The position numbers and the translations under genes are program-made. Shown piece after piece: positions 13,788 through 30,390 of a stretch of 64,000 nucleotides of DNA. Source of the stretch: Candidatus Obscuribacterales bacterium (GTDB taxonomy: Bacteria > Cyanobacteriota > Vampirovibrionia > Obscuribacterales > Obscuribacteraceae); NCBI GenBank assembly GCA_019744775.1, contig JAIETZ010000002.1, positions 372,001-436,000 of the forward strand, read 5' to 3'. Under the pieces are notes generated by a model, which searched no databases, was not told where the DNA came from, and saw only the letters and a program-made list of their open reading frames with translations. Within the stretch, counting starts at the first letter, position 1. Every line of letters begins with the position of its first letter.

Positions 13788-13789
13788 AG

Positions 13790-15130
13790 TTATTTCTCCT
13801 TGTTTTGAGCTTGCGTATGAGCATCAAGCCCTTCCAGCCAGTGCCCCATTTTTTCCTTTTTGGTCAGCAAATAATTGATGTTGTGACTATTGCACGCTGC
13901 CGGCATAGCCACTCTTCCAGTAATTTGCAAACCATAACCTTCAAGTCCGACAATTTTGCGTGGATTGTTTGTAATGATACGCACTGATGATAATCCGAGA
14001 TCGTACATCATCTGCGCACCGACACCGTAATCACGCAAGTCAGGTTTAAAACCTAATGATTCATTTGCTTGAATGGTGTCCTGTCCTTGATCTTGGAGAG
14101 CATACGCTTTGATTTTGTTGATCAAGCCGATGCCTCTACCTTCCTGACGCAGGTAAACCAAAACACCCTCTTCTTCTGTGGCAATCATTGCCATGGCCGC
14201 TTCCAATTGAGGCCCGCAATCACAGCGCAAGCTGGCGAAGACATCACCTGTAAGACACTCGCTATGCACTCGCACCAGAACGTCTTTTTTGCCTGCAACA
14301 TTACCTTTTACAAAGGCAATGTGACCTCGCCCGTCCAATTGGTTGCGATAAGCGTACATCTTAAATTGACCATAAGCAGATGGAAATTCCGCTTCCGCTT
14401 CACGCACAACAAAACGCTCACGCTCCAGGCGATAGGCAATTAACTGAGCAATGTTGATTACCTTTAGATTATTGCGCTCGGCAAACTCAAACAACTGCGG
14501 CACGCGCGACATGCTGCCGTCATCATTGATTATTTCGCAGATAACACCAGCGGGCTTAAGTCCGGCCATGCGCGCTAGGTCAACAGCAGCTTCTGTGTGT
14601 CCGGCGCGCTTCAATACACCGCCTTCTTTTGCAATGAGCGGAGAAATGTGTCCTGGTCGTCTTAAATCAGACGGCACAGACGCATCATCAACGGCAACAC
14701 GAATTGTCGTCGCTCTATCAAAAGCGCTTATGCCTGTGGTGACACCGTATTTAGTATCGGCATCGATTGTCACAGTGAAAGCAGTACCCTGACTTTCGGT
14801 ATTGCGCTCAACCATCATGCCTAATTGCATCGCATCGGCTCGTTCTTGAGTAAGAGCCAAACACACCCAGCCACGAGCTTTGGTGATCATGAAGTTGATC
14901 ATCTCAGGCGTGCACAGCTCTGCTGCACAAATCAAATCGCCTTCATTCTCGCGACCTTCGTCGTCGGCAACTACAACCATGCGTCCGGCTTTGATATCAG
15001 CAATTGCTTCTTCAACTGTACTGAATCGTGACTGCAAGTTATTATCGGCCAATACGTTAGCGGCTTTTTTAGCTATAGATGCGGGGTTGAAATCAAGCAT
15101 GAGTTTGAATCCGTGTTTAAGTGTAACCAT
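13790..15130 (-). CDS. ribBA: Bifunctional DHBP synthase / GTP cyclohydrolase II
   Basis: Protein of 446 residues supplying both riboflavin precursors. The N-terminal half (from [19 protein letters not shown]) is 3,4-dihydroxy-2-butanone-4-phosphate synthase, with [11 protein letters not shown] and [14 protein letters not shown]. The C-terminal half is GTP cyclohydrolase II, with the zinc cysteines in [17 protein letters not shown] and [11 protein letters not shown]. The ATG at 15130 overlaps ribE by 14 bp; an internal ATG at 15100 would remove ten residues and is also possible. No ribD is in the window. Confidence 0.97.
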
Positions 15131-15788
15131 GTTCAGAAAGGACCGCTAGATCCAATCCGGTTTTATTGCCGACTTTTAAAGGTTGAGCAATATGAGGCTG
15201 CAACCAATTAGCAGCGTATTTAGCAATGAGATCTATTTCGATGTTCACCTTATCTCCCACTTGCAATTTGCCGAGTATTGTTACTTCAAGTGTGTGAGGA
15301 ATCAGCATGACGCTAAAAACAAATCCGTTGTCCATGTTGCAAGCAAATACCGTAAGGCTAACACCGTCGATGGCAACTGAGCCCTTCTCGATAAAGTATG
15401 GTCTGTGCGCATCATCGAGTGCAAACGTGATGATGTTGGTGATGCCTTCTTTCTTGATGGAGACTACCTTGGCCAATGTGTCGACGTGACCACTTACCAA
15501 ATGTCCGCCTAATCGATCAGACAACTTGAGGGCTCTCTCTAAGTTGACCTTATCGCCTTGCTTCAAATCACCAAGCTTTGTCTTGCGCAGAGTCTCCTGA
15601 CCGACTTCGACTTCAAACCATTGCTTGTCCTCTAAGACAGAGGTCAGGCAAGTACCGGTAACGCTCACCGAATCGCCCCTTTTGAGGTCAGTTGTAACCT
15701 TAGCCGCCCCTATCCGGAAGCGCTTGCCCTCGCCGGAGCCTGCTACGGCAACAATCGTGCCTACTTCTTCTACAATGCCCGAAAACAT
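15117..15788 (-). CDS. ribE: Riboflavin synthase, alpha subunit
   Basis: Protein of 223 residues that dismutates two lumazines to riboflavin. It starts with the canonical MFSGIVEEVGTI and consists of two tandem lumazine-binding barrels: DSVSVTGTCLTS with GHLVSGHVDT, then GSVAIDGVSLTVF with IPHTLEVTIL. First gene of the riboflavin operon. Its leader contains copy 3 of the dispersed leader element, and I could not find the conserved core of an FMN riboswitch in it. Confidence 0.97.
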   Translation of the reverse strand: MFSGIVEEVGTIVAVAGSGEGKRFRIGAAKVTTDLKRGDSVSVTGTCLTSVLEDKQWFEVEVGQETLRKTKLGDLKQGDKVNLERALKLSDRLGGHLVSGHVDTLAKVVSIKKEGITNIITFALDDAHRPYFIEKGSVAIDGVSLTVFACNMDNGFVFSVMLIPHTLEVTILGKLQVGDKVNIEIDLIAKYAANWLQPHIAQPLKVGNKTGLDLAVLSEHGYT

Positions 15789-15989: not shown

Positions 15990-16541
15990 TTATCTCTCTT
16001 TAATATCGGCGACCACATGCTCGCCAGTGGCGCTTTTGACGCCGATAAGCAGCTTCAGGTTAAAAGGCTGCGGACCAGAAGGACCAGACTCATCGGCCGA
16101 ATTGACAGCTACCTCGCCCTTTACGGTAACGGGAACGAGTCCGTTTTCATCGGGATCTCCGGCACTGACATCAGCTATGTGAACAGCTGCAACTTGCCGG
16201 CGAGCCTTTAGTCCCTCCAAGGTCGCAGCCATCTCTAGATTGTCTTTGGGCAAGTCGCCGTTGGACTGCATCTTCTTAACTACCTGGCTGCCCAGCTCGC
16301 CACCTAATAGTTTTTTGGTGTTGTCTTCATAGTTGATATAACTCGAGTCGACCAGATGTGTCGCTACCTGATAAACAAACTGCTCAATAGTTTGCTTGTT
16401 ACCTTCAGGACCCTCTACTTTCGGATTCGGTCTAGTGGCAATAAGCAGCACGTTAAAGAACAAGCTGACGCCTAAAGCTATTGGCACACCCCACTTCTTT
16501 GCCAGCTCTTTTGGATCAATTGTCTTAATGCGCCAGTACAC
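15990..16541 (-). CDS. VirB8/TraE-like bitopic membrane protein (putative)
   Basis: Protein of 183 residues. A short cytoplasmic N-terminus and a single helix (VPIALGVSLFFNVLLIAT) precede an extracytoplasmic alpha/beta domain. This domain contains EQFVYQVATHLVDSSYINYEDN, an exposed helical part and a beta-rich end (VPVTVKGEVAV, FNLKLLIGVKS). The layout of one helix plus an NTF2-like periplasmic domain fits VirB8/TraE of type IV secretion systems. The GTG start overlaps the preceding stop by one base (TAGTG). Last gene of the minus-strand cluster. The assignment rests on architecture and neighbours. Confidence 0.5.
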   Translation of the reverse strand: MYWRIKTIDPKELAKKWGVPIALGVSLFFNVLLIATRPNPKVEGPEGNKQTIEQFVYQVATHLVDSSYINYEDNTKKLLGGELGSQVVKKMQSNGDLPKDNLEMAATLEGLKARRQVAAVHIADVSAGDPDENGLVPVTVKGEVAVNSADESGPSGPQPFNLKLLIGVKSATGEHVVADIKER

Positions 16542-16885
16542 TAGTTAAACTCCACACTGCCTAAGATCCAATTCTTACCTTGTCTATAGAACGTAAGCGT
16601 CGCCGCTAATTCTTCTGTTTGACCATCGGGAGCAATTGCTCGTTGCGTGCCCACTATTCTAACTTTTGCATCGGTCTTTGTAAGCTTTAAAACTTTGGCG
16701 TCGGTTATATCAGCTGCTTCTCCCCAGCCCATATCTTGCCATTGCCAGGAAAAAACATTTTGAGCATCAAGCTTGGCGATTTCAATCATGCGTTGATTGC
16801 TTACGGTCTGCAACGCGAGCCAGACCAAGACAAAAAAGCCGCAGAAGAAAACGAACCATTTATTTATGGAAAAAAGCTTTTCCAT
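16541..16885 (-). CDS. Small VirB8-like/NTF2-like bitopic membrane protein (putative)
   Basis: Protein of about 114 residues. MEKLFSINKW leads into one helix (FVFFCGFFVLVWLALQTVS), followed by an alpha/beta domain ending in ATLTFYRQGKNWILGSVEFN, which resembles the closing strands of NTF2-like folds. ATG 16885 has GGAAGG about 10 nt upstream and places the gene 5 bp after the VirB4 stop. Together with the next gene it may form a pair of inner-membrane scaffold subunits. No direct family recognition. Confidence 0.45.
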   Translation of the reverse strand: MEKLFSINKWFVFFCGFFVLVWLALQTVSNQRMIEIAKLDAQNVFSWQWQDMGWGEAADITDAKVLKLTKTDAKVRIVGTQRAIAPDGQTEELAATLTFYRQGKNWILGSVEFN

Positions 16886-16890
16886 TAACT

Positions 16891-19554
16891 TCAGCCTTCC
16901 ATTTGCAGAGCCAAGTAATAAACTGCCTGCCGGCAAGCATCCGTGTGACTTATGCTGGGATTCTTCGCCTTTATTTCGCGAATCATTTCTAGGCGCCTCG
17001 GAATATCATGAATAGGTTCTGATGTGCAACACCAGTAGTCCATGTGACTGGGCACCAACCTAATAGTCCCGTGCACGCCGCCTACTATTAAAAGAGCCTG
17101 ACTATCGCGTCGTTTCTGTTCATCGCGGGCGAAATTTTCCACAGCCATTACTTCAGCGTCTGTAAGACGCAACACATCTTTCAACAACCGCAAATCACTA
17201 GGATCTTGGCGCAAAAGAATTTTCATGTGTGAGTTTTTCACAACGGAATCAGCTTGCTCTGCCTGTTTGAAAAAGTCTTTCAACTGTTGCGTAATACAAA
17301 CAAGCATCATACCGTAGTGACGAGCACGTCTGGACAGGTCATCCAACAGTCGAGCGCCTGCCTTGAATCGCATCAGTGTTGCAGCCTCATCAATGATGGC
17401 TCCAAATCTAATTCCACGCGCTTTACTTTCCGCCGCTTTCCGTCGTATGAATTCCGCCAAAATAAACATGGCTATTCTTTCCAAGCGAGGTTCGTTGACT
17501 TCACGCGTATCAAATACTATTAGGTGTTTTTCGGTATCGATATTTGTATAACCATCGACCAATCCGCCGAAGGCTCCTGTCTTTGTGAACAGAGACAAGC
17601 CGCGAGCAAACTGCTGCAATCTTTCTCTCTGTACCGGATCAACTTCATCATTGGCCGCTTGAGCTGTCACACGCGCCAAATCCGACATTGTCGGCACAGT
17701 GTTGCGGAACCCTGCATCCATGTAAGCCACTCGAATTAAGCCGTCTAAAAGTGATTTTTCCTCGACGTTCAATTCCTCGCGACCTTCCGGCGAAAGCATG
17801 ATATCCAGCAGTTGCAAGAGCACGCTTATCTTGTCACCTGAAGGTTCACCGGGTTTGTCTTCCGGTCCCAAATCAAATGGGTTCAATATCAAACCAGCAC
17901 TTGGTCCCAGGTCTACATAGGCGCACATTTCCGGTCCAAGTAATTCAGTAATGAATCTATAGGCACCAAATCTGTCCACTGTTTTGTCAATCAAGACAAA
18001 TCGCGTATCAAGAGTCAACATGCGCAGAATCATCATAGACACGGCGAATGATTTACCGGCTCCAGTTGTTCCGACAACGAACATATTGTTAGCGTCTTTG
18101 CCTGCTCCTCGGAAAAATGGATTTAAAAGCACCGGTTCACCTGAGGCAATCGCAAAGCCAAATGGAACACCATCAGGTGTGCCGCATTCAGCCGTAAAGA
18201 ATGGCCAGAACGTGCCAACTACCGGTGCCATCATACGATTGACTATTGCTAGTTTGTCTACACCAACGGCAAGTGTCGACTGCCAAGCGTCTAATTGCAA
18301 CATTTGCGCTCTATCAAGCAAGGCACCTTTATTCTTAAACACACGACGAATTTCATCCATGTTGTGTGCTAGCTGTTCCGGCTTATGCGCATACGTGTTG
18401 ACGTAGATACCTACATCGAAAGCTTTATTTGCGCTGCGTAGAAAATCGTGAATAGCAGAAGCAGCGGTACGTGTCGACTCCATGCCTTCTATATCAGGCG
18501 TAGCCATTTGAGCAGATGACATCAACCCATACTTAACATCATTCTTGAGTTTCTTACGTACTTGATCTTGATCACAGGTATGAATAAACATGGACAACGT
18601 GTATTCAACTTGCAATGTCAGCAAATCAACGAGCCAACCCATCCAAGTTTCATGTGGCGGCTCTTGCAAGTACATTGTGCCAACGTAGCGACCGTCCAGC
18701 CAAACATGCTCGTCTGCAATTCGCAAAGCAGATCTAGCCAAGCAAGATGCCTCAGAAATGTCAGGACGTGAAGGTGGAGCCTCGTTGTCGCGCGAAGCTA
18801 ATGACGGATTGAGATCTGCGTAAATTAGGTTCCTTACGTCCTTGCGCTTCATTGCCTCTGGACGCAAATTTGATAAACGCAACTGTTCAGCAACTGTACG
18901 CACCAGTCTGTTGAGATTTTCCACGTACTCTTCATGCTTCTGCAAGGAGCGCCTGCCGCTCCAAGGCTTAGTCATATTTTGAGTGTCGGGAGGCTGATAA
19001 CTCACAACAACAATGAATTCTCTATCCGGGACGAATTGCACGTCCTGCACGCGACGAAACCACTTGTCCGTATAGTCTGCGTACCATTTGAGATAATCGT
19101 TTTTGGTTTTTATCTGCGATTGAAAGCGCGACAGATACTCATCTACGGACAGATGTCGCGACCTAATAATTACCTGAATGTCCGTCTCGCAAGAATTGGC
19201 TAAAGCCGCAAAATTGCGGGCCAACTGTTCACGGTCTGCTTCATCAAATAACAATGCGTTGATGCCTTTGCATGACAGATACTTGCGCATACTACCGTCG
19301 GCAAGAATTACCAGACCTTCGTCATTATCATCACCAGGAATGGCGTGAATGAATGTAATATCCTGCCAGCTAGCGGCACCTCTTTGATCTTGCGGCGGTC
19401 CTGATTCACCATCAGTTGAAGCTCCTGGAAGTCCGCCAGGCAGCATTTCACGAATCATTTGCGGCAAGCCGCCTATAATAGCGCTGAAAAAATCACCCTG
19501 CGGCACATTGCGCAAGGACTGTCCATCTCCTGAATCTTTCAAGTTTCCCGCCAT
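16891..19554 (-). CDS. VirB4/TraC-like type IV secretion ATPase
   Basis: Protein of 887 residues. Walker A is GTTGAGKS (residues 495-502) and Walker B is FGAIIDEAATLM (717-728). Sensor-like QQLKDFF and FDTREVNEPRLERIAMFILAEFIRRK are also present. This is the conserved C-terminal motor of VirB4/TraC, the membrane-associated ATPase that powers type IV secretion or pilus assembly. The N-terminal third (IVVVSYQPPD, EEYVENLNRLVRTVAEQL) matches the VirB4 N-terminal layout. The extreme C-terminus ends in DACRQAVYYLALQMEG. It is the most reliable anchor for calling the whole region a type IV-like system. Confidence 0.88.
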   Translation of the reverse strand: MAGNLKDSGDGQSLRNVPQGDFFSAIIGGLPQMIREMLPGGLPGASTDGESGPPQDQRGAASWQDITFIHAIPGDDNDEGLVILADGSMRKYLSCKGINALLFDEADREQLARNFAALANSCETDIQVIIRSRHLSVDEYLSRFQSQIKTKNDYLKWYADYTDKWFRRVQDVQFVPDREFIVVVSYQPPDTQNMTKPWSGRRSLQKHEEYVENLNRLVRTVAEQLRLSNLRPEAMKRKDVRNLIYADLNPSLASRDNEAPPSRPDISEASCLARSALRIADEHVWLDGRYVGTMYLQEPPHETWMGWLVDLLTLQVEYTLSMFIHTCDQDQVRKKLKNDVKYGLMSSAQMATPDIEGMESTRTAASAIHDFLRSANKAFDVGIYVNTYAHKPEQLAHNMDEIRRVFKNKGALLDRAQMLQLDAWQSTLAVGVDKLAIVNRMMAPVVGTFWPFFTAECGTPDGVPFGFAIASGEPVLLNPFFRGAGKDANNMFVVGTTGAGKSFAVSMMILRMLTLDTRFVLIDKTVDRFGAYRFITELLGPEMCAYVDLGPSAGLILNPFDLGPEDKPGEPSGDKISVLLQLLDIMLSPEGREELNVEEKSLLDGLIRVAYMDAGFRNTVPTMSDLARVTAQAANDEVDPVQRERLQQFARGLSLFTKTGAFGGLVDGYTNIDTEKHLIVFDTREVNEPRLERIAMFILAEFIRRKAAESKARGIRFGAIIDEAATLMRFKAGARLLDDLSRRARHYGMMLVCITQQLKDFFKQAEQADSVVKNSHMKILLRQDPSDLRLLKDVLRLTDAEVMAVENFARDEQKRRDSQALLIVGGVHGTIRLVPSHMDYWCCTSEPIHDIPRRLEMIREIKAKNPSISHTDACRQAVYYLALQMEG

Positions 19555-19575
19555 TTATCTCGCTACCCTCAATAC

Positions 19576-19962
19576 CTACTGTTCTACCGCTATGTACGTC
19601 TCCTGTGTTTTCTTACCCGGTTCAACGATAGAGGCATCCAAATAAACAATTGCCGGTTCGCTCTTCGGCATATACTGGCGCGGCTGAATACCCAAGAGAA
19701 AGGCTAGCCTATTGCGCCACCAGACCATTGGTTTCATGGTAGGGGCTGCTACAAATACCGCAGCACCGCAGAGAATGCCTATGCCAACCCATGCGCCTAG
19801 CGGCACATTCGCGATTTTCAAGTCGGGCATCCAAGCAGCAACTTGCGAGCCGAAATAAAATGCTAAGGCGATAGCGACCACCATCACAGTCCATTGCAAT
19901 AGGGTAAAACCGCGAATCTTAAGCGGTCTATTCATAACAATGACTTTGTGCACCACGGACAT
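19576..19962 (-). CDS. VirB3/PrgI-like membrane protein (putative)
   Basis: Protein of 128 residues with two adjacent helices (LLQWTVMVVAIALAFYFGSQVAA and VGIGILCGAAVFVAAPTMKPM). A short amphipathic stretch (WWRNRLAFLLGIQPRQYMPKSEP) and an acidic tail follow. It lies directly before the VirB4 ATPase gene, as VirB3 does in T4SS operons, and PrgI/TcpA-type proteins have the same two-helix shape. GGAGG lies 10 nt before the ATG, which overlaps the DUF2225 stop (TAATG). Confidence 0.55.
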   Translation of the reverse strand: MSVVHKVIVMNRPLKIRGFTLLQWTVMVVAIALAFYFGSQVAAWMPDLKIANVPLGAWVGIGILCGAAVFVAAPTMKPMVWWRNRLAFLLGIQPRQYMPKSEPAIVYLDASIVEPGKKTQETYIAVEQ

Positions 19963-20594
19963 TAAGCACTAACCTCCGCTACAAAATCAATAGCCTGGCT
20001 ATCATTAGCATCGCTCAAGCGCATTAGCTTTCTAGCCATTATAGCGAAATGAGAGGGCAGCCTGCCGACTATTTTCGAGAAGTATTCACGACTGGCGGCA
20101 AACTCGCCGGCACGTCTCAGTATCTCTGCTACCAAGTACTCGACTTCGGCTCTTTTATCAGCCGGACAAGAGCCGTCAACCATGGACTTGCTGAAGGCAT
20201 CAGCTGCCAAACGTCTATATTCCGCAGCTTGCACCAGTGCATTTCTGTCATCTGCACACCAAGCGGCATAGAGATACAAATAAGCTACGTTGTAAAAACT
20301 ACGCCCTTCTTTCTCGGCATTTATTGCTGCTTGACGAAACTGCAAATGAGCAGTCGTTACCGGCGCAGTTAAATATGCAGGCTCTTCGATCACTTCGAAT
20401 GATGTCGACCAGTCTGCTCGTCCACAGCTCGGACAAGTAATGACGAAGTATTCTTCATATTGAGGAATTACACCTTTAAAAAACTGCCGCAATTCGCTGT
20501 TTCTGTAACCGATATCGATAACAGCAGGCAACTGCCGGGAGTTGAATTTAACTCCACAAATTGGACACTTCACTCCAATGTCAGCAACGTACAT
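19962..20594 (-). CDS. DUF2225 family protein with two CxxC zinc sites
   Basis: Protein of 210 residues. CPICG near residues 10-14 and CPSCG near residues 54-58 form a likely bipartite zinc site. A helical, TPR-like region (AEYRRLAADAFSKSMVDGSC, AEVEYLVAEILRRAGEFAASREYFSKI) follows. The pattern is that of DUF2225 proteins, cytoplasmic with no known biochemical function. It lies between the VirB6-like and VirB3-like genes and overlaps the latter by one base, so it probably belongs functionally to the cluster, which is not a usual T4SS partner. Confidence 0.75.
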   Translation of the reverse strand: MYVADIGVKCPICGVKFNSRQLPAVIDIGYRNSELRQFFKGVIPQYEEYFVITCPSCGRADWSTSFEVIEEPAYLTAPVTTAHLQFRQAAINAEKEGRSFYNVAYLYLYAAWCADDRNALVQAAEYRRLAADAFSKSMVDGSCPADKRAEVEYLVAEILRRAGEFAASREYFSKIVGRLPSHFAIMARKLMRLSDANDSQAIDFVAEVSA

Positions 20595-20620
20595 TGTCTA
20601 CGTTGTTCCTTTCTCAAGTA

Positions 20621-23600
20621 TTAACCTGTCTCTTCGTCTTCCTGGTTCGCTTTGGCAATATTTTGCTGATTTATTCTTTTGTCGTCTTGATTTTGCGGAG
20701 AATCAGCGATGTTTCCGAAATTATCACTTGGTGCGGCGCCTGCATTCGTATTTGCTGCCCCTGGCGGCATACCCTGACTTTGAAGCAACGAAGACTCGTC
20801 TTGGCTAAAGCCACCGGAGCTTCTCGGTCCGCTAAACTCAGCACTTTGTGGCGCTGAGCTCTTCAATATTCTGTCGATTACTGAAGAACCTCCGGCAGCG
20901 GCTCCTGGCATTGCCGAGGCAATGTTCGGTGTGCCACCGGCATTAGCTAAAGGATTTGATGGAGGAATATTCGATTGCAATCCTCCTTGTGAAACAGCGC
21001 CGGCATTGTTTATCGTAGTCGATGAATTTTCCGCAACAGTTTGATTGGTCACATTTTCTTGAACAACCTGAGGGCTGCTATCTGTGGTGACATGAGACTG
21101 CTCGACTCCTCCGGCAATATATTGTGTTTCCGGCCTAGCATATTGAGACTGATCGAATACAGGTTGTTGTTCCATAAATGCAGGCTGAGCTTCCGAAACA
21201 ACCGGAGTTGAGATTTCTTGCGGCACCATCTGCACAGATTCGGTCTGGATATTCTGCACTTCCGTTTGCATGTTCTGTATTTCAGTCTGCGTAGTCTGCG
21301 TTTCTGTTTGCGTATTTTGAATCTCAGTAGTGTGCACAACTTCGGGCGGCTGACTGAAATTGGCTGATACCGATGGATCAAACACTGGTGGAGGGTTGTA
21401 TGCGATATCGCTAGAGAAACCACTCGACTGTCCTGCGGCAGCATCCGTTGGGAATTGCACACCACCTGCTCCAAATCCTGCTTCGGGAGGACCTGGTATT
21501 ATGTTGGAACTTACGCTTGCATCCATTTGATTGGCACCACCAAAAGTATTTGCGGTGTGCGATCCTTCGTGGACATTCATTCCCAAATTGGCATTTATAC
21601 CACCTTGGTGCAATTGCGCAGTATCGGGTTGACCACCATGCAATTGTTGATTAGCAGATACGTTGCTGCCACCAAAAGTCGTGTCACCGGCCGATATAGG
21701 CGATCCTGGCGGCGGGTTAAGTCCTGCAGCTTGCCCTTGGGCGATTGCATTGTGACTTTGACTGCTTTGGCTATTGGACAAAGAGCTTGATTGAGCACCC
21801 GTGATTCCCGGCTGCTGAGAGCCTTGCCCACCTGTAGATCCAGGAGTACTGGCACCACCCTGACCAACAGCTCCGTGCGAACCACTTTGTCCGGCAGCTC
21901 CATGTCCACCGGCAGTTCCTACGCCACCAAATGCCGGCGGCATATTTTGAGTGCCACCAGCCGGCCCAACACCTCCAGGTCCTGCCCCTGAAAATTGTGA
22001 CGAACCAGCCTGAGCAGTTCCCGGCGGCGGTGCCACGTGAGCACCAGCACCCTGCGGTCCAGCCGTGGCTTGCGATCCTGCCGGCGAGCCAAATGGTGAA
22101 GTTCCACCTGCTCCTCCGTGTCCGGCACCAATGCCACCACTACCACCAGCAGCACCTCCGTGACCTGTAGCGCCGCTTCCTAAAGGACCACCACCGAGCG
22201 TCAACCCTGCTGACTGTCCAGCAGCGGCCCCAGCCGGTGCTCCTGCGCCTGGCTGACCTCCAGGTGCGCCCGGTCCACCGGCAGCATGACCACCAGCTTC
22301 TTTATGAGCTGCTGTAATGGCAGCGCCTTGCGCGCCTACTCCAGCTTTAGCTCCCAGAGCGGCAGCATTACCTGCAGCATGTGAACCTGCTTCTTGCGCA
22401 GCGGATGCTGCTTCGCGTCCTGCTGCCGCGACAAGTCCCAAGAAGTTAAACGCGTGTTGCACTGAATAAATTGCCAGAACATTCAACGCCGTCATAATGA
22501 CTGTTCCTGTTGTACAAACGTTGCGGAAACAAGCCATCAAAAGAATAGTTGTGTTCCAGAAAAGTGCCCAGAAACAAATAATCAGCACGCCTTCAATCCA
22601 ACTTCCGAGTGCTTTCCTAAAGGTATCAATCGGCCATACCCAAAGTGCGGCCACAATCGGTCCCATCAAGAATAAATAGTGCAGATAGGCTAACTGAAAT
22701 GCGCACATGACGTTCCATGTACCTGCAAGTCCGACGTTAGCTATGTTGACAGCGACACGCGAAATATTCATCAAGACAGGTGTTGTTTCATCAGCTAAAT
22801 CATTGACATTGCTGCCACCCTTACATGGATCCGGCCCGTAAATGTCATAGGACTCTCTTTCATGATCAGTCCAAGCTTGCAAATCTCCTGCGCCCTTTCC
22901 GGATGGTTGGGTTTTACGGAAGATACCGTTATCGTTGGAATCTTTCGGTCTAATCGGGAAAGCGCGCTTCTCTGCACACTCTGCATCCTTGTACATATTA
23001 CTGTGGAATATTCGCTGGTAATTGTCTCGAATAGTAAGCGCCATAGAGTTCGAAACATCGATTCCGTAGTTAACAACAAGATATGTTGCCGGAATAAAGA
23101 AAATCGCCACTATAGAGCGAATGATACCGTCAAAAGGATTGACGTCACCAAACAGCGGTGAACCTTGAGCAATAATTGCTTTTACTTGCGCAAGGACTGC
23201 ACCAGGCAAAAGAAGCAGTACTGCCATCGGCACAAACAGCTTGTCGCGAATAGTATTCCAACGGTTGCCTGCTTGAGTCGTGAAGTTAGGCAAATATTTT
23301 TCAGCGTATTCAATTGCAGAAGCCGATTGGTTACGCGCAAGGTTGGCTGCGCTGTTTGCTGCCGATTGCGTCTGAATCATACCCATAGCATTTATAACCC
23401 AGATTACCTTTTCCGGGTCAAACAATTGTTCGAGCATGATGTTTTGATCGTATCTATGCAGAATCTGATACTGCGTATCAGAGATAGGCAAACCAAATGT
23501 TATTAATGGATTGCGTTGAATACCTTGGTCTCTCATTGTAGGAACAATGGAAACAGCTTCCTTGACGAAAACCGGCCAAACTTGTACGGGTCCTGTCAAA

Positions 23601-23875
23601 TTGTGTTTGACTTTTCCTGGTCCTTTTGATTCTTCCTCAACTACAACATCTTCTCCGCCATATTTGGTAGGAGCGAAGCTCTTGGCGTTTTTCATACGCT
23701 TATAGAAGTCTTCTCTAATATCGCTGGCGGTTCCAGGATTAGAGTCATTTTTGTCGGAGCTGGCACCAGGTCCACCGGCCTCATTTTGCGCGAATGCCAA
23801 AGGCACCACTGACAAAAAGCAGAAGGCTAATGTGAACAATACTAGTAATTTTTTGACGTTCATTTGGCTAAACAT
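20621..23875 (-). CDS. VirB6/TrbL-like polytopic membrane protein with long low-complexity tail (paralogue A)
   Basis: Protein of 1084 residues. A signal-like N-terminus (KLLVLFTLAFCFLSVVPLAFA) precedes a conserved domain with FGLPISDTQYQILHRYDQN, QLFDPEKVIWVINAMG and SAANSAAN. Helices follow: FVPMAVLLLLPGAVLAQVKA, GIIRSIVAIFFIPATYLVV, and a later LYFLMGPIV-type set. The second half, from about residue 480, is Gly/Ala/Gln/Ser-rich disorder with short repeats such as TEIQNTQTETQTTQTEIQN. Order and hydrophobic layout resemble VirB6/TrbL channel subunits. It is a clear paralogue of the next gene, which suggests a hetero-oligomeric channel. Confidence 0.65.
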   Translation of the reverse strand: MFSQMNVKKLLVLFTLAFCFLSVVPLAFAQNEAGGPGASSDKNDSNPGTASDIREDFYKRMKNAKSFAPTKYGGEDVVVEEESKGPGKVKHNLTGPVQVWPVFVKEAVSIVPTMRDQGIQRNPLITFGLPISDTQYQILHRYDQNIMLEQLFDPEKVIWVINAMGMIQTQSAANSAANLARNQSASAIEYAEKYLPNFTTQAGNRWNTIRDKLFVPMAVLLLLPGAVLAQVKAIIAQGSPLFGDVNPFDGIIRSIVAIFFIPATYLVVNYGIDVSNSMALTIRDNYQRIFHSNMYKDAECAEKRAFPIRPKDSNDNGIFRKTQPSGKGAGDLQAWTDHERESYDIYGPDPCKGGSNVNDLADETTPVLMNISRVAVNIANVGLAGTWNVMCAFQLAYLHYLFLMGPIVAALWVWPIDTFRKALGSWIEGVLIICFWALFWNTTILLMACFRNVCTTGTVIMTALNVLAIYSVQHAFNFLGLVAAAGREAASAAQEAGSHAAGNAAALGAKAGVGAQGAAITAAHKEAGGHAAGGPGAPGGQPGAGAPAGAAAGQSAGLTLGGGPLGSGATGHGGAAGGSGGIGAGHGGAGGTSPFGSPAGSQATAGPQGAGAHVAPPPGTAQAGSSQFSGAGPGGVGPAGGTQNMPPAFGGVGTAGGHGAAGQSGSHGAVGQGGASTPGSTGGQGSQQPGITGAQSSSLSNSQSSQSHNAIAQGQAAGLNPPPGSPISAGDTTFGGSNVSANQQLHGGQPDTAQLHQGGINANLGMNVHEGSHTANTFGGANQMDASVSSNIIPGPPEAGFGAGGVQFPTDAAAGQSSGFSSDIAYNPPPVFDPSVSANFSQPPEVVHTTEIQNTQTETQTTQTEIQNMQTEVQNIQTESVQMVPQEISTPVVSEAQPAFMEQQPVFDQSQYARPETQYIAGGVEQSHVTTDSSPQVVQENVTNQTVAENSSTTINNAGAVSQGGLQSNIPPSNPLANAGGTPNIASAMPGAAAGGSSVIDRILKSSAPQSAEFSGPRSSGGFSQDESSLLQSQGMPPGAANTNAGAAPSDNFGNIADSPQNQDDKRINQQNIAKANQEDEETG

Positions 23876-23905
23876 TTGTAGTACTGGTACTCCTGTGTAA
23901 GGACA

Positions 23906-26683
23906 TTAAATGCCCTTTCCTTTGTCTCCACCTTTGTCGCCTGGTGGTGGCGGTGCAGAAGGTGGCGGTGGTGCTGAAGGGGGTGAAGGTGGTGCCGAAG
24001 GTGGTGATGGCGGCGATGGTGGTGTCGGAGGTGATGGTGGCGCATCAGGACCACCTGAAGTCCCTCCGCCTGAGCTTGGCGGAGGTGATGACGGCGAGAC
24101 AGTCCCAGAAACAGATCCACTAACACTTGCGGATCCGCCGGACCCTGCTGTTCCAGCGGATGGGATATTTGCCGAACCAGGAAACAATCCTTGCTGTTGA
24201 CCGGCCCGTAAAGCATCCCCAGCCTGACCGAGTCCGGCTGCTGTGGGTTGAGACAAATTAGCAGAAAGACCGGCCGGCATTCCCGGGTGTGCATTAGCCG
24301 TTGCGGTGGATGTAGCAGCGCCGCCAGTGCCTGCGCCCGGCGGTGGTCCTGATACCGGTGGTCCATTTGGATTACTGTTTTGCGCAGAAAGCCCTGTCTG
24401 TTGTCCAACTCCTGATGCAAGTGGAGAGGCTCCTTGTGAAGATGGAGGTTGTGCTGTCGAGGGTTGTCCGACTGCCGCCGGGCTTATGCCTGTTAGCGGA
24501 GGTTGTCCGACAGTCGGAGTAGCGGCACTGCTTGCGGTGGCGGGTGAACCTTGCGGCATGAATTGCGGCGGCTGTGTCCCGCCGGCTCCGCCTGAACCGG
24601 TTCCACCACCCTGCATATTGAGTCCGCCGCCCACACCTGAGCCTTGCTGCAGACCAAGAGCCTGGTTGGGTATGTTGATACCACTGCCCATGGCACTGCC
24701 AACTTGCGACATTTGTTGACTGGCTTGCTGCATAGGCTGGCTAAGTGCTTGAATCTGCGCTTGCGGTACACCCATAGCTTGAGCTTGCTGTTGAAACTGC
24801 TGCGTTGCACCGGCGCCCATTTGACCGCCTTTACTAATGGCGGCAGAAGCGACACTTCCAGGATCAAACTGAAACGGGTTAAAAGGAACGACCAGCATAA
24901 GACCCAAGAAACAGGTCAATACCATCATTTCCCATTGATCGGCATAATTGATACCACCGGTATCTTGCAACCAGAGTAATCGCTGCGTCATCACAGCCAT
25001 AATTACAATCCAGTAAAAACGCCAGAGAGAAACGTTAATTACAGCGTTTACCCAACTGCTGAACACTTGCCTGAAAAGCTGAGACGCCCCTTGCATAGAT
25101 GGCCAAGCAAAAAAGCATGCGGACAAAGGCCCAAGCAGGAAAAGATAGCAAATAAATACCATTTGATAAGCAGTAAGAGCGATAAGCGCATAGGCCATTC
25201 CATACTCAACGGAGTTAAACCAGAGCTGCATCATTTGAGAAAGCCACTTCTGCTTTTCTTGTTTTGTTTTCTTTTCCAAGTCGTCGTTAGCCTTACCTTG
25301 GCCTTCCCCACCGCCGGCCGGTTGAGCGATGTTGCTTAAAACCTCGTTGAAGAAGCCGGCGTTGCCACCGCCGCCGCCGCCACCGCCACCACCACCTGAA
25401 GAGCCGCTGCTGCCGCCACCACCTGGTTCAATGACGTTCAAGTGATTATCTATTGGCGGGTTAAAGGACTGCTCCTTAGACCACATAAAAATGGTCTGAG
25501 TGTTGGCCCAAGGTTTTACTGATTCGGATAAGCTGTTGCCTATGTCTATCGAATAACTAACAATCAACTGTGTAGCCGGAATGAGGAAAATAGCTATAGT
25601 TGCACGCAAAATGCCCTCAAATGGCATTGTTACCTGGCTTTCGAAAAAGCCTTTATAAACAAAACTCTGAATTTGCGTGAGAACAGCACCAGGAAGAAGA
25701 AAGAGAAGTGCCATCGGCAGGAACACTTCATGGTACATCTTCATAACCATCCACACAGCTTGCGAATTGGTTTTAGGATCTTGGTCCGGCGTACAAGCTG
25801 ACCCTGAACCTTCGTTGGCAACATTTATAAGCACATCATCGCGAATGCGATGGAGGGCATTGTTGAAGCTTGCTTCAGCAGCACCGGCTGAACTGTTGGC
25901 AGCTGACGCGCCCTGGATTTGCCCTGTATTCGTGGCCAACCAAGTCATGTGCTCAGGATCAAAGAGCAATTCTAAAAAGCGCTGGTTATTTTCTCTATCG
26001 ATAATTTGAAACTGCGTATCAGTAAGAGGCAGTCCGTTAACAGGAGCTATATTTACTCCAAGAGAATGTTGCGGCATCTTATACGTGCCAAGTGCTGTAT
26101 CAAATAATTCTTCGTCACGCTTTGTAGCAACTTCATCAAACGGCAAAGTCCACAATTTCGGCTGCGTGTAACATGCAGGCAATGGGCAAGGCGGTTGCGG
26201 TTGGTGATACCACTCTGCCGTAGGCAACCAATGTCCGACACCGTCACAATGCACGTGGCAAATATCGTAGGCTAAAACAACACGCTTACCTGGCCCAACT
26301 GATTCTCTTTTTTTCGGTCCACTGGAAGCGCCTCCGCCTCCACCGCCGCCTTCTCCACCTTCGGAGCCTTCAGCAGCACCGGCGCCACCACCACCAATTT
26401 CAACGACCAGGTCATGCCCGTCCGGATTATCAGGAATTTTCTTACCTGTCGGTCCGGCGTATTTAGCGTAAGGAAAGCGTTTGAAATACTTTTTGCGAAT
26501 ATCCCAGGCTGCTACATCGTTAGCATCTTCCGGCTTGACGGCGCCACCTGAACTTGGAACAGAGCTGCCGCCGCCACCTTGAGCAAAGGCTTCGCTAATT
26601 ATGCCCAAAGCAAAAACAAAAGCTATCAGCGCCACAAGCGCCGACGACCATATTTTACGAGTTGCTTTGTTTCTCAACTGCAT
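23906..26683 (-). CDS. VirB6/TrbL-like polytopic membrane protein with Pro/Gly-rich tail (paralogue B)
   Basis: Protein of 925 residues with a signal peptide (ALVALIAFVFALGIISEAFA). It shares with paralogue A the blocks GLPLTDTQFQIIDRENNQ, LLFDPEHMTWLATNTGQIQ, SAANSSA, FLPMALLFLLPGAVLTQIQS and AIFLIPATQLIVSYSIDIGN. Four to six more helices follow (YGMAYALIALTAYQMVFICY, SLWRFYWIVIMAVM, WEMMVLTCFLGLMLVV). A glycine run interrupts the membrane region. The tail is Pro/Ser/Ala-rich and ends in PPPPGDKGGDKGKG. AAWDIRKKYFKRFPYAKYAG near residue 60 corresponds to DIREDFYKRMKNAKSF in A. Confidence 0.65.
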   Translation of the reverse strand: MQLRNKATRKIWSSALVALIAFVFALGIISEAFAQGGGGSSVPSSGGAVKPEDANDVAAWDIRKKYFKRFPYAKYAGPTGKKIPDNPDGHDLVVEIGGGGAGAAEGSEGGEGGGGGGGASSGPKKRESVGPGKRVVLAYDICHVHCDGVGHWLPTAEWYHQPQPPCPLPACYTQPKLWTLPFDEVATKRDEELFDTALGTYKMPQHSLGVNIAPVNGLPLTDTQFQIIDRENNQRFLELLFDPEHMTWLATNTGQIQGASAANSSAGAAEASFNNALHRIRDDVLINVANEGSGSACTPDQDPKTNSQAVWMVMKMYHEVFLPMALLFLLPGAVLTQIQSFVYKGFFESQVTMPFEGILRATIAIFLIPATQLIVSYSIDIGNSLSESVKPWANTQTIFMWSKEQSFNPPIDNHLNVIEPGGGGSSGSSGGGGGGGGGGGNAGFFNEVLSNIAQPAGGGEGQGKANDDLEKKTKQEKQKWLSQMMQLWFNSVEYGMAYALIALTAYQMVFICYLFLLGPLSACFFAWPSMQGASQLFRQVFSSWVNAVINVSLWRFYWIVIMAVMTQRLLWLQDTGGINYADQWEMMVLTCFLGLMLVVPFNPFQFDPGSVASAAISKGGQMGAGATQQFQQQAQAMGVPQAQIQALSQPMQQASQQMSQVGSAMGSGINIPNQALGLQQGSGVGGGLNMQGGGTGSGGAGGTQPPQFMPQGSPATASSAATPTVGQPPLTGISPAAVGQPSTAQPPSSQGASPLASGVGQQTGLSAQNSNPNGPPVSGPPPGAGTGGAATSTATANAHPGMPAGLSANLSQPTAAGLGQAGDALRAGQQQGLFPGSANIPSAGTAGSGGSASVSGSVSGTVSPSSPPPSSGGGTSGGPDAPPSPPTPPSPPSPPSAPPSPPSAPPPPSAPPPPGDKGGDKGKGI

Positions 26684-26689
26684 TAGCTA

Positions 26690-28603
26690 TTAGCGCCTCA
26701 AGGGAATGTTTTTGCCACCTGCATCAGAGAGGTAGACGGAGATTCGATCATTCCAAGGATGACCGAAGATAGTAATGGTGCCCGACACTTCCTTGCTGGG
26801 AGCAACAAGCGTCGTTTCAAAATCAGCGCGTACCGCTGCATCTGAAAGCTTCCTGTTGTTTTCCATAATGGAAATCGCATCAGGATCAAAAGTAAGGTTT
26901 TCACTGCCGGTATTGCGAATAGCCACTTTCAAAATCGACTTACGCGGTGTGACATTTAAATTGCGCAATTCAAATGCAATGCAATCATTGCCGCCACTAC
27001 TAAGTCTCAAATCCGGCACTTGAGCCACAGGCTTAACTGCTTGCGCGACGGGAGCCTGCACCAAGTCTCCAGGCAAAGGCTTGCCTGCAACTTTACCCTT
27101 TTTCGCATCCGGCTTTTTAGCTTCTGCTTTTTTCGGTTGTGCCGGCGGTAAGGCTTTAGGTTGTGCGTTCAATTCCTGCACTTCTTCATGCTTGCTGCTG
27201 CCAAATCCAAGCAGTCCCAAAATTCCACCACCACTGCTGGACGATGACATGTCATTTTTGGCTTGCGCCAAAGCTTGTCTTTCTGCTTGAGCCAGAGAAT
27301 CAATTGAAGGAGCAACGCCTGAGACACGAGCAATCACAGTACGAGCTGCTGCTGCGCCGGCAGTTGCTGCCAATTCATTTTGCGCAACTTTTAGATCATC
27401 ACGAGCAGATTCTGCTGCTTGTTGCGCTTGCGACATGTCTGCTGCAGCTCTTTGCTGCTCAGCGGCCGACTCGGCAACTTCTGTTTCTTGTTTGCGGGCA
27501 GCAACAGTTTGTTGAGCCAGAGCAAATTTGTTGTACGCATAGAGATACCGGTAATAATCCTGAGCAACATCAGACAAAATCTTGCGCACCGAGACTGCGA
27601 CCTTTTTATCAAGTGCAACCGGCTTATACAGTTGCTCTATTTGGCGAGCCGACAGTGTTATGGACCCTCTGGATGATTCTGGAGGCATGCCGACATCAAG
27701 CTTACTCAAGCTCAGAGCGATATCCTTGTCCCTTGCTTCTGATTGCAATTGCGGAGACATGGACAAAGCACCTTTGAGCAGTGTCTTCAAATCATCGCGC
27801 TGCTTGGTGGCAGATCTAGCCTCCATGCCTGTCGGAGTAATCGGCGTAAAGTCCTGCAATTTCTTTTTCGGTTTTGCTTCTTCGTCCCCACCATTAGATT
27901 GATTAACCGCGCCCCCGGAGGCAAAAGGACTGCCGGCCGGTCGCGCATCTCCACCTTGCATAAAAGGGTTAGGTGCTGCATTACCATAAGGATTTGCATA
28001 GGGATTCATGTAAGGATTAGCATATGGGTTCATATATGCTTCCGGTGGCGCACCGTAAGGCACAGTCTGCGCTTGCGTTGACAGTGACACCGCAGGCGGT
28101 GGCGGAATCAAACCACCCGGAGCCGGGGGCGCCGGTGGCACCGAAGAGCCGTAACCACCATAAGAAGCAGCAGGCGACGGCGGCACACTACCAGGACTCG
28201 ACGGCACACCAGATGACTGAGGAGTTGACTGCGGGGCCATGAAAGGGAAAAACGGCAAAGCCGGAGCGCTGGCTTGCTGGTTGCCGCTGACCACTTGATC
28301 GGCAGGCGGCGCAAAAGGAGCACTGGATACAACCGGCAGTCCACTTGACTGACCGCCTTGAGCGGCATCTTCAGCTGCTACCAAAGGTTGCGCAACCATG
28401 TTCTTCGCTTTTAACTTCTGCAAAATCTTCGGATCGACTTTGGGGCGCAAGCCGCCCAAGACCGAACCCGATTCAGATGAAGCGGATGATGACGGCGCCT
28501 CGTCACTTGAATGCGAGCACGCCGTAAGCAGAGCCGTCAAGCTGAGCGCAAAGACTGCATTAATGGTCAAAGCGTTGGCTTTTGGTTGCATTTTATCTTT
28601 CAT
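26690..28603 (-). CDS. Large lipoprotein of the secretion-like cluster
   Basis: Protein of 637 residues with a lipoprotein signal peptide ending in LLTAC (lipid cysteine about residue 29). About 200 residues of Pro/Ser/Gly-rich linker follow, including an NPYANPYMNPYANPYGN repeat. Next is an alpha-helical region rich in Ala/Gln/Glu (AAEQQRAAADMSQAQQAAES), probably coiled coil. The C-terminal beta domain (CIAFELRNLNVTPRKSILKV, NTGSENLTFDPDAIS) looks immunoglobulin-like. It could fill the VirB7/VirB9 outer-membrane role, but no sequence-level match is claimed. It lies 6 bp upstream of paralogue B. Confidence 0.6.
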   Translation of the reverse strand: MKDKMQPKANALTINAVFALSLTALLTACSHSSDEAPSSSASSESGSVLGGLRPKVDPKILQKLKAKNMVAQPLVAAEDAAQGGQSSGLPVVSSAPFAPPADQVVSGNQQASAPALPFFPFMAPQSTPQSSGVPSSPGSVPPSPAASYGGYGSSVPPAPPAPGGLIPPPPAVSLSTQAQTVPYGAPPEAYMNPYANPYMNPYANPYGNAAPNPFMQGGDARPAGSPFASGGAVNQSNGGDEEAKPKKKLQDFTPITPTGMEARSATKQRDDLKTLLKGALSMSPQLQSEARDKDIALSLSKLDVGMPPESSRGSITLSARQIEQLYKPVALDKKVAVSVRKILSDVAQDYYRYLYAYNKFALAQQTVAARKQETEVAESAAEQQRAAADMSQAQQAAESARDDLKVAQNELAATAGAAAARTVIARVSGVAPSIDSLAQAERQALAQAKNDMSSSSSGGGILGLLGFGSSKHEEVQELNAQPKALPPAQPKKAEAKKPDAKKGKVAGKPLPGDLVQAPVAQAVKPVAQVPDLRLSSGGNDCIAFELRNLNVTPRKSILKVAIRNTGSENLTFDPDAISIMENNRKLSDAAVRADFETTLVAPSKEVSGTITIFGHPWNDRISVYLSDAGGKNIPLRR

Positions 28604-28620
28604 CTACTCCAATCTTGGCG

Positions 28621-29280
28621 TTAATGGGCATTCAAGAGACGTCCGCGTACGCTGGCGTCTGTACGAGCACTACTGCCACTACTTCCGATACCACTACCGG
28701 AGCCATATCCACCGCTATAGCTTTGAGCTTGAGCAGGTTTTGCACCACCAAGCAGGCGTCCTCTGACATTGCCCGCACCGCTTCCCGGTCCGGCGCCGGA
28801 GCCAGGCTTAGGCGTCATCATTTTCCCTAAAACACCTTGCGTTACGCCCGGCAAAGGACCTTTCGGACCCATTCCACGCGCTGGAATATTACTTTCACGT
28901 CCGAAGCCTGACTTCGGCAATGCCATTGGATTGCCCATCATCGGACTATCCGTGCGATAGCCTTGATTAGGTCCACCCAATTGAACTGGAGCCGATGCGG
29001 CACCACCGGGATCACCCATAGCGCCGGCACCACCGCCACCATACCCACCACCAGCACCTTCCGGTCCGGGTGGTAAATCAACGTAGCCTGGAGCTTGCGG
29101 CGCTTCACGAAAATCTTTTACGATAGGCCTCTCATCAATTATTTGATATTCACGCGGCGCAGTATACCAACGACTCTTCTGAATCATGTTGTCTTTGACG
29201 CGCTGTTGTGCGTCCGCATCATTTACTGATGCCAACAAAGACAACCCTGCGCTCAAACTTAGTAAAACCAATTTCTTCAT
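28621..29280 (-). CDS. Exported Gly/Pro-rich protein
   Basis: Protein of 219 residues with a good signal peptide (KKLVLLSLSAGLSLLAS, cleavage near ADAQ). Residues 24-60 are ordered and charged (NMIQKSRWYTAPREYQIIDE). The rest is Gly/Pro/Ser-rich, with RGRLLGGA and a C-terminal VRGRLLNAH echo. AAGGAG stands 7 nt before the ATG. Its codon frame is clearly coding, but no family is recognised. As a cluster member between two other exported proteins it may be a secreted or envelope component. Confidence 0.6.
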   Translation of the reverse strand: MKKLVLLSLSAGLSLLASVNDADAQQRVKDNMIQKSRWYTAPREYQIIDERPIVKDFREAPQAPGYVDLPPGPEGAGGGYGGGGAGAMGDPGGAASAPVQLGGPNQGYRTDSPMMGNPMALPKSGFGRESNIPARGMGPKGPLPGVTQGVLGKMMTPKPGSGAGPGSGAGNVRGRLLGGAKPAQAQSYSGGYGSGSGIGSSGSSARTDASVRGRLLNAH

Positions 29281-29328
29281 TACCTAACTCCTTAGTACCT
29301 TGGGCCAATGCGCCTCGTGCGGAAAAAA

Positions 29329-30390
29329 CTAAAATCCCATCGGCATCATGTTCATCGGACCTTTCATTATTTTGCCGAGACCCTTGCCGAAATTAGAAGG
29401 CTTGCCGGCTGGACGATATTTGTAGTTAACGTCATCTTCCGGCAAAGAAAGATCTTGTGTAGAACTCTGTGTGACGACAACCGGCGATGGAGCATCAGGT
29501 GACTGCTGCCCATTCCGGTCGTTAAGCCTTGGTTCGTTACCCAATGCTCTCATGTCTTTGTCTCCGGCGCCGGAGTATCTTGGCCGGTCACCATATTGAG
29601 AATTACCCGATTGCTGGCGATATGAATCACCGCCAACCGGAATTTGCTGATATTGATTGGTCGTACCGCCACCGGCACCGACTGGAATACGCTGATAAGA
29701 ATTCGTTGTGCCGCCGCCGGAGCCGACTGGAATACGCTGATAACTTCCACCACCGGCTGCGTCAGTACGCACCTTATATCCTTGTCCGCCACCGGAGCCA
29801 CCGGCATTCATTGAAGAGGCGCCACTATCGGGATCCATGAATGATCCCGAAGGCATAGCTTCTCCGCCGCCTGGCATTAACCCAGGTACAGCCTGTCCAC
29901 CAACCGGTATTTTCTGCGACATGCCGTAGATGCTGGCTGGACGTCCTTCCATTGGCACGTGTCCATAACTCTGGTGATAGGTGACTCCACCTGAGCCACC
30001 GCCGCCACCTTCTTTCTTGTCTTTCAACCAAGAGCCACCAGTACTGGAGCTAATCGGCAAATCCAATCTGTCAGGAAATGGCGGAAATAAAGCCGGTGGA
30101 ATTGGTTCATCGCAAGATATAGGTTCTACGGAAACATCAATTTTTGGTCCTGCCGGAGCACGCATCAGTTGCATGCGTCCACCACCTTGCGGTTGCGGCG
30201 GTGGCTGATACACAGGATGTCTTTGGAGTTGTGTTTGATCTGAATATTGATTATCGCCTGGAGTGTGCACGAATTTGCCCATATTGGTTGGCGGCAACTG
30301 TGCGAAAACCGCACTGCAAGACGACATTGCTGCTAAGCAAGTTAATGCCTGAAAAAGAGGCGCTTTATAAATACGCGTACAAAATCTCAC
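29329..30390 (-). CDS. Exported repeat-containing protein, first gene of the secretion-like cluster
   Basis: Protein of 353 residues with a GTG start preceded by GGAGGG. The signal peptide is APLFQALTCLAAMSSCSAVFA followed by Q. The mature part is Pro/Gly/Ser/Gln-rich with three tandem YQRIPVG-type repeats (29633-29755). The C-terminus (DLSLPEDDVNYKYRPAGKPS) is more ordered. Promoter-proximal gene of the minus-strand cluster. A secreted structural component or substrate is conceivable; I recognise no domain. Confidence 0.6.
   Translation of the reverse strand: MRFCTRIYKAPLFQALTCLAAMSSCSAVFAQLPPTNMGKFVHTPGDNQYSDQTQLQRHPVYQPPPQPQGGGRMQLMRAPAGPKIDVSVEPISCDEPIPPALFPPFPDRLDLPISSSTGGSWLKDKKEGGGGGSGGVTYHQSYGHVPMEGRPASIYGMSQKIPVGGQAVPGLMPGGGEAMPSGSFMDPDSGASSMNAGGSGGGQGYKVRTDAAGGGSYQRIPVGSGGGTTNSYQRIPVGAGGGTTNQYQQIPVGGDSYRQQSGNSQYGDRPRYSGAGDKDMRALGNEPRLNDRNGQQSPDAPSPVVVTQSSTQDLSLPEDDVNYKYRPAGKPSNFGKGLGKIMKGPMNMMPMGF
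29633..29755 (-). repeat. Tandem 15-residue coding repeats (YQRIPVG)
   Basis: Three adjacent imperfect 45-bp units encode SYQRIPVGSGGGTTN, SYQRIPVGAGGGTTN and QYQQIPVGGDSYRQ. The third is truncated. The near-identity of the first two at the DNA level points to recent tandem duplication and possible length polymorphism between strains. Confidence 0.7.

Follow-up and report, generated by a model that had tools for sequence, protein, structure and literature searches.

We analysed a stretch of 64,000 nucleotides from a Candidatus Obscuribacterales bacterium (the window, G000:C2:372001-436000; genome G000 has 4.1 Mb in 13 contigs). A minus-strand gene cluster at positions 15990-30390 of the window, termed locus 1, was confirmed as a real type IV secretion system (T4SS). 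It encodes the core parts, namely a VirB4 ATPase, a PrgI/VirB3-like protein, two VirB6-like proteins and a protein with the VirB8 fold, and has no type IV coupling protein (T4CP), relaxase or VirB11 at the locus. Locus 1 is inherited vertically and is near-universal in Obscuribacterales, an order of non-photosynthetic relatives of cyanobacteria; a second T4SS, locus 2, lies on contig C4 of the same genome. We consider it fairly probable that locus 1 is a T4SS domesticated for a role in the cell. Mobile relaxase-T4CP modules may plausibly borrow a resident T4SS for their own transfer.

Core components of the locus-1 system

An open reading frame (ORF) check of the window found ten minus-strand ORFs at locus 1, all open at the coordinates and in the order given by a first-pass annotation made from the sequence. 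The genes and the evidence for each are as follows (TM, transmembrane).

15990..16541, minus strand: VirB8-like bitopic protein, 183 aa (AlphaFold2 fold and Foldseek)
16541..16885, minus strand: small bitopic protein, ~114 aa (one TM helix, conserved motifs)
16891..19554, minus strand: VirB4 ATPase, 887 aa (Pfam, NCBIfam, Walker A/B)
19576..19962, minus strand: VirB3/PrgI-like two-helix membrane protein, 128 aa (PrgI matches, TM prediction, hhalign)
19962..20594, minus strand: DUF2225 zinc-ribbon/TPR protein, 210 aa (PF09986, CxxC pairs, hhalign to locus 2)
20621..23875, minus strand: VirB6-like channel protein 1, 1084 aa, with signal peptide, 4 TM and a long Gly/Ala/Ser/Gln-rich tail (topology, paralogy)
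23906..26683, minus strand: VirB6-like channel protein 2, 925 aa, with signal peptide, 5 TM and a Gly/Pro-rich tail (topology, hhalign)
26690..28603, minus strand: lipoprotein, 637 aa, with Pro-rich N-terminus, TolC/OEP-like helical hairpin and C-terminal immunoglobulin (Ig)-like DUF4352 (lipobox, profiles, model)
28621..29280, minus strand: exported Gly-rich protein, 219 aa (composition, signal-peptide-like N-terminus)
29329..30390, minus strand: exported Gly/Pro-rich protein, 353 aa (hydrophobic N-terminal segment, composition)
13302..15788, minus strand: ribE, ribBA and ribH, conserved neighbours outside the machine (3' of the VirB8-like gene in loci extending so far)

The VirB4 protein matched the Pfam families P-loop_TraG (71 bits) and TraC_F_IV (44 bits), both above cut-off, and Walker A (GTTGAGKS or GSTGAGKS) and Walker B (IDEA) motifs were present in 52/52 VirB4 homologues, in agreement with the first-pass annotation, which had called it a convincing VirB4 ATPase. 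These homologues come from genomes mostly labelled Candidatus Obscuribacterales, Obscuribacter or Melainabacteria. The two-helix VirB3-like protein proposed by the same annotation was also borne out: two TM helices are predicted, and 14 of the 27 family members match PrgI (PF12666), the Gram-positive VirB3, although weakly (best E 5e-4). It aligns with the VirB3-like protein in the same position of locus 2 (hhalign 87%). Sequence searches of the PDB gave no matches for the VirB3-like protein or the lipoprotein.

Two large proteins had been described as VirB6/TrbL-like. Each has a signal peptide and 4-5 TM segments in the TM plot; they are mutual paralogues (hhalign 100%), and both align with the VirB6-position protein of locus 2 (95% for 23906-26683 and 85% for 20621-23875). 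The description thus held by topology, paralogy and locus-2 homology, and failed in that neither the pair nor its family has a Pfam VirB6/TrbL match. From position, topology and these relationships we infer that both are probably VirB6 proteins. Homologues of the 20621-23875 protein range from ~1080 to more than 2200 residues between genomes, mainly by the Gly/Ala/Ser/Gln-rich tail.

The AlphaFold2 model of the 183-aa protein (pLDDT 90.8) contains one TM helix, further helices and a four-stranded sheet. A Foldseek search of the PDB with this model retrieved mostly TraE (pKM101, TMt 0.71), TraM, DotI, CagV and VirB8. Plastid ARC6-type NTF2-like domains reach similar scores, and therefore the operon context matters for the assignment. 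By sequence the protein matched no family, and a PDB sequence search gave only chance ubiquitin-repeat matches. The predicted fold confirms the 15990-16541 product as VirB8. A second VirB8-like protein had been proposed for the adjacent small gene, which the sequence comparisons do not support: its product has no sequence match and no relation to the VirB8-like protein by hhalign. Homologues of the earlier 131-aa ORF begin with MEK(L/I)F, so the start was moved from 16936 and the gene is 16541-16885 (~114 aa), which no longer overlaps the VirB4 gene. The small protein has one TM helix, the conserved start MEKxF and a motif YxxxxxWxLG.

No T4CP was found at locus 1, the three PF02534 matches in G000 all lying on contigs C1 and C4. 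Likewise, there is no PF03432 relaxase in the window (both G000 matches are on C1), and no VirB11 was found at 15990-30390. The earlier observation that relaxase, coupling ATPase and VirB11 are missing nearby was therefore correct.

Phylogenetic placement of VirB4

Against NCBIfam, the locus-1 VirB4 scored highest with CD1110 (202 bits, E 1e-59), followed by TraC-F (177), the Mbov_0397-type (169) and VirB4_CagE (148), all under the family (equivalog) cut-offs. In a VirB4 tree, both resident VirB4s and some solo paralogues formed one clade (96/94) beside, and not nested in, the mating-pair formation (MPF) types FATA/FA, and apart from the F, T, I and MPF_C types. G345 and G367, from other families of the class, have VirB4s that were placed near but outside this clade. 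Because the tree uses a small set with few references and has long branches, we read the Obscuribacterales VirB4 as nearest to FATA rather than as an established member. The MPF_FATA/FA lineage would thus be the nearest relative of the locus-1 VirB4. The first-pass annotation had ruled out a Gram-positive set, which was not supported: with a PrgI-like VirB3 and a CD1110-like VirB4, locus 1 comes closest to parts of the Gram-positive type.

Membership in MPF_C was rejected: the VirB4 does not group with that of Trichormus plasmid A, and no VirB10 homologue was found. A phylum-wide TIGR00929 scan was negative for cyanobacteria, a weak result since only two candidates per genome were scored. At L038, L040, L100 and L101-L103, VirB4 paralogues stand alone, with no T4SS gene recognised beside them; they are either 59-64% identical copies of the locus-1 VirB4 or members of a divergent 686-733-aa group.

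Distribution and inheritance in the order

The locus-1 VirB4 was found in 52 of the 53 Obscuribacterales genomes, which are metagenome-assembled, and in all 22 of those at least 90% complete. The genome lacking it is 64% complete, and a further genome, G398 (71% complete), showed only the second VirB4. Among loci of the order that reach far enough, the gene order is conserved: exported proteins, lipoprotein, VirB6, VirB6, DUF2225, VirB3, VirB4, small bitopic protein, VirB8 and ribE-ribBA-ribH. This conservation indicates a gene cluster beyond chance. Across the order, the locus-1 VirB4 mostly adjoins the riboflavin genes.

Distances of the locus-1 VirB4 (VirB4-1) and the unlinked locus-2 VirB4 (VirB4-2) correlated strongly across 17 genomes (r = 0.934, Mantel p = 2e-4, which is the floor for 5000 permutations). 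The mean distance was 0.27 for VirB4-1 and 0.28 for the neighbouring RibBA, and both VirB4s are as conserved as RibBA. A search with the locus-2 VirB4 in 289 genomes of the class found both VirB4s throughout the order, with one weak match outside it; G000 has only these two VirB4 genes. Two VirB4s of one clade occur in nearly every genome, suggesting that the duplication predates the diversification of Obscuribacterales.

The presence in 52/53 genomes and the vertical descent, together with the lack of T4CP and relaxase, indicate that locus 1 is not a mobile element. An ordinary integrative and conjugative element (ICE) or plasmid is ruled out by the non-patchy vertical distribution and by the absence of a relaxase or T4CP at or beside the cluster. 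All parts do ultimately descend from conjugation machinery, but with Walker motifs intact in 52/52 homologues as well, it is extremely improbable that locus 1 is a decaying or ordinary conjugative element. Moreover, because the whole order keeps it at a housekeeping rate, the machine must serve the host. The first-pass annotation had argued from missing relaxase and coupling-protein genes for a dedicated machine and against ordinary conjugation. That absence is too weak an argument, and no clean one against DNA transfer: G000 has a T4CP in the sister T4SS and a relaxase-T4CP module on another contig, and modules of this type move within the order while encoding no channel themselves. The order-wide vertical inheritance is stronger support for a dedicated cellular machine, and on this ground the claim stands. 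A search of the open full-text literature, with subscription papers outside its scope, found no description of this system in Obscuribacterales.

DUF2225 and putative envelope-associated components

The DUF2225 protein matched PF09986 above cut-off (52 bits) and has a CxxC..CxxC pattern in 29/30 homologues. A homologue occupies the same position in 21/21 loci of the locus-2 type (hhalign 99%); several genomes of the order showed no DUF2225 protein at locus 1 (e.g., L021-L025, L028 and L033). Placed between VirB6 and VirB3 at both loci, DUF2225 is common to this T4SS lineage and is an unusual, recurrent T4SS-linked component. An open full-text search, which did not extend to subscription literature, found no paper that treats DUF2225 and type IV secretion together.

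The large lipoprotein was recognised correctly by the first-pass annotation, as its lipobox (LTAC) demonstrates. Profiles of its family matched OEP in 8/12 cases (best E 5e-6) and DUF4352 in 10/12 (best E 7e-5), and the AlphaFold2 model shows a helical hairpin and a beta-sandwich; by Foldseek, the C-terminus resembles generic Ig-like folds only. None of the ten locus-1 proteins has a Pfam or NCBIfam match to the VirB7/VirB9/VirB10 core. The lipoprotein is a candidate for the outer-envelope link and a putative stand-in for this core.

Composition and N-terminal segments also agree with the proposed export of the Gly/Pro-rich proteins. The 219-aa protein contains 20% Gly, and its C-terminal motif is related to that of a 200-aa exported protein of locus 2 (hhalign 90%). 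The 353-aa protein has a hydrophobic segment at residues 12-30 and 16% Gly, with homologues in the same position in L025, L028 and L033.

A second T4SS throughout the order

Locus 2 (G000:C4:480000-499900, L067) is unlinked to locus 1 and encodes VirB6-like, DUF2225, VirB3-like, VirB4 and VirB8-like proteins, followed by a VirD4-type T4CP (PF02534) and a Replic_Relax protein. Besides the VirB3, VirB6, DUF2225 and exported-protein alignments given above, the two loci are related in VirB4 (hhalign 100%) and, more weakly, in VirB8 (52%). Also encoded at locus 2 are a TadE/G-like protein and x143, a small exported protein and possible pilin; in most of the genomes in which x143 was seen, its identity is 77-89%.

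Given the same core order, the homologous families and the matching distribution, loci 1 and 2 could belong to one system, as two parts or as two states of it, with the T4CP and x143 of locus 2 used in common; the T4CP was present at locus 2 in 21/21 sampled genomes and at locus 1 in none seen. However, VirB3, VirB4, VirB6 and VirB8 are all encoded separately at either locus, and the VirB4s are only 28-31% identical. We regard a single system as unlikely.

Mobile relaxase-T4CP modules

Among the matches listed, to which the next counts also refer, at least 97 T4CPs not belonging to locus 2 occur in 38 genomes. Seventy-five of the 97, spread over 36 genomes, lie <=6 kb from a relaxase, which in 74 cases is encoded on the same strand, and no VirB4 lies within 170 kb of these pairs, many module contigs being short. 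None of the resident VirB4, VirB6 and VirB8 families was found in twelve sampled modules. With a general VirB4 model, a classical VirB4 beside a T4CP was found only in G399, which provides a positive control. G399 carries two classical VirB/D4-type clusters (G399:C1:51418-77482 and 148383-163693), the only such clusters found in the order, with VirB4 at 560-576 bits, a VirB11-size ATPase and strong T4CP and relaxase matches.

The module T4CP family is present in 39 of the 53 genomes of the order, in varying copy number; the remaining 236 genomes of the class gave two weak matches at 30%. Module T4CP distances hardly followed those of the hosts (r = 0.14, versus 0.92 for the resident pair), and in G405 and G425, which belong to different genera, the module T4CPs are 93% identical and the VirB4s 75%. 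The low correlation and the near-identical T4CPs across genera show that the modules move. The module T4CP is nearest to CD1115 (187 bits), as the resident VirB4 is nearest to CD1110, and the CD1115 and CD1110 families occur together with PrgI in one operon of a Gram-positive Brevibacillus plasmid. The G000 module (L088:8239-12693, on C1) encodes a ribbon-helix-helix accessory protein, a MobA/VirD2-like relaxase and a CD1115-like T4CP; close by are genes for an AbiEi/AbiEii pair and a DprA-domain protein. Most module T4CPs are followed by a 219-225-aa membrane protein, which showed no relation to the T4SS parts it was compared with.

Integrative and mobilizable elements with their own VirD4 are known; their VirD4 is thought to replace the coupling protein of the helper, and helpers are conjugative elements (PMC5704250). 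In Obscuribacterales, the case that the modules use a resident channel is circumstantial, resting on co-distribution, on there being no other channel in nearly all genomes, and on the matched families. Tentatively, locus 1 may be a host-owned conjugation channel, i.e., a T4CP-less, vertically inherited T4SS shared by order-confined, MPF-less elements with relaxase, accessory protein and matching CD1115-like T4CP. A stronger version makes locus 1 mainly an MPF apparatus for mobile elements, and possibly for chromosomal DNA, with each element bringing its relaxase, ribbon-helix-helix protein and CD1115-like T4CP. It would account for MPF-less modules in 36 genomes that move between genera and, save for the two weak matches, are confined to the order within the class, for the T4CP class matching the resident VirB4 class, and for classical VirB4s near T4CPs only in G399. 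Yet this support is circumstantial, locus 2 with its own T4CP could serve equally, and a pure target of parasites would not stay conserved at a housekeeping rate; as the main function, a public mating channel is rather doubtful.

Possible function of locus 1

We favour a domesticated T4SS that would serve the cell, by protein export or as a contact or surface structure, and not its own transfer. VirB4 may power a translocon that VirB3, the two VirB6 proteins and VirB8 form in the inner membrane, and the OEP-like lipoprotein and exported proteins may take the channel across the outer envelope. Lacking its own T4CP, locus 1 could receive Sec-exported substrates from the periplasm or inner membrane, as Ptl does; alternatively, a coupling protein could be supplied in trans. 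T4SSs without a T4CP are known from Ptl (Sec-exported substrates), Brucella effectors and ComB DNA uptake (PMC12857230). Because exported Gly/Pro-rich proteins and a lipid-anchored envelope protein are encoded in the operon, protein export or a surface/contact structure appears the most economical role, judged from gene content. The channel-less modules would plausibly transfer through a resident T4SS.

Several points weigh against this interpretation. Locus 1 has no recognisable VirB9/VirB10 or pilin that would take it across the outer membrane. Inheritance at a housekeeping rate shows that the host benefits, not which benefit it draws. The locus-2 T4CP could serve locus 1, and the modules, for their part, could transfer through locus 2, through a transient ICE (G399 has two) or by another route.

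A DNA uptake machine like Helicobacter ComB or the archaeal Ced/Ted systems would share the deficit of ComB, which has no T4CP and no VirB11 (PMC12857230), and would have an archaeal precedent of domestication (PMC9905601); ComEC was found in 47/53 genomes. However, G000 encodes T2SSE-family ATPases, including 700-aa PilB-size and PilT-size proteins, and locus 1 contains no DNA-binding part. Since a type IV pilus/ComEC route may exist, DNA uptake by locus 1 becomes less likely, and we judge it improbable.

Comparison with known systems

MPF_FATA systems of monoderms (pCF10 Prg, CD1110/CD1115 elements) likewise have a PrgI-like VirB3 beside VirB4, and the locus-1 VirB4 is nearest to CD1110. In contrast, the locus-1 VirB4 falls into a separate clade that does not include the FATA/FA references, and locus 1 lacks relaxase, T4CP and NlpC/P60 hydrolase and adds the lipoprotein, DUF2225 and exported Gly/Pro proteins. 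By description, the T4SS of Patescibacteria is also chromosomal, lineage-wide and mostly vertical, with a FATA-related VirB4 and PrgI, usually no relaxase, and a T4CP usually elsewhere in the genome (PMC12102498). Obscuribacterales belong to another phylum, have a VirB8 recognisable by fold and carry two paralogous loci per genome.

MPF_C of photosynthetic cyanobacteria (Trichormus plasmid A, pCC7120alpha) shares the phylum and the VirB3-VirB4 gene pair, but its VirB4 lies elsewhere in the tree and it has VirB10, its own T4CP and its own relaxase. The Vampirovibrio T4SS, from the same class, is of the MPF_T type, partly plasmid-borne and accompanied by relaxases (PMC4451040). Pertussis Ptl and Helicobacter ComB also function without a T4CP (PMC12857230), although both have recognisable VirB7-10, of which no homologue was found at locus 1. 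Archaeal Ced/Ted is domesticated chromosomal conjugation machinery (PMC9905601); the locus-1 VirB4 is distant from CedB (35 bits versus a cut-off of 700), and no VirB2-like pilin was found at locus 1.

The order carries the T4SS as a fixed chromosomal organ in two related copies, one without a coupling protein. Bacterial conjugation channels have been described as a property of mobile elements (PMC9905601). If a fixed host T4SS does serve channel-less mobile elements that supply T4CPs, it would be a bacterial counterpart of archaeal Ced/Ted and a direct test of splitting coupling protein and channel between element and host.

Neighbouring genes

An Rfam scan of the window, which could have revealed, e.g., an FMN riboswitch upstream of ribE, found zero RNAs. 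Two long TPR proteins are encoded at 30652-34259, divergently from the T4SS operon. In L033 both have homologues beside the operon; in L028 the first one does.

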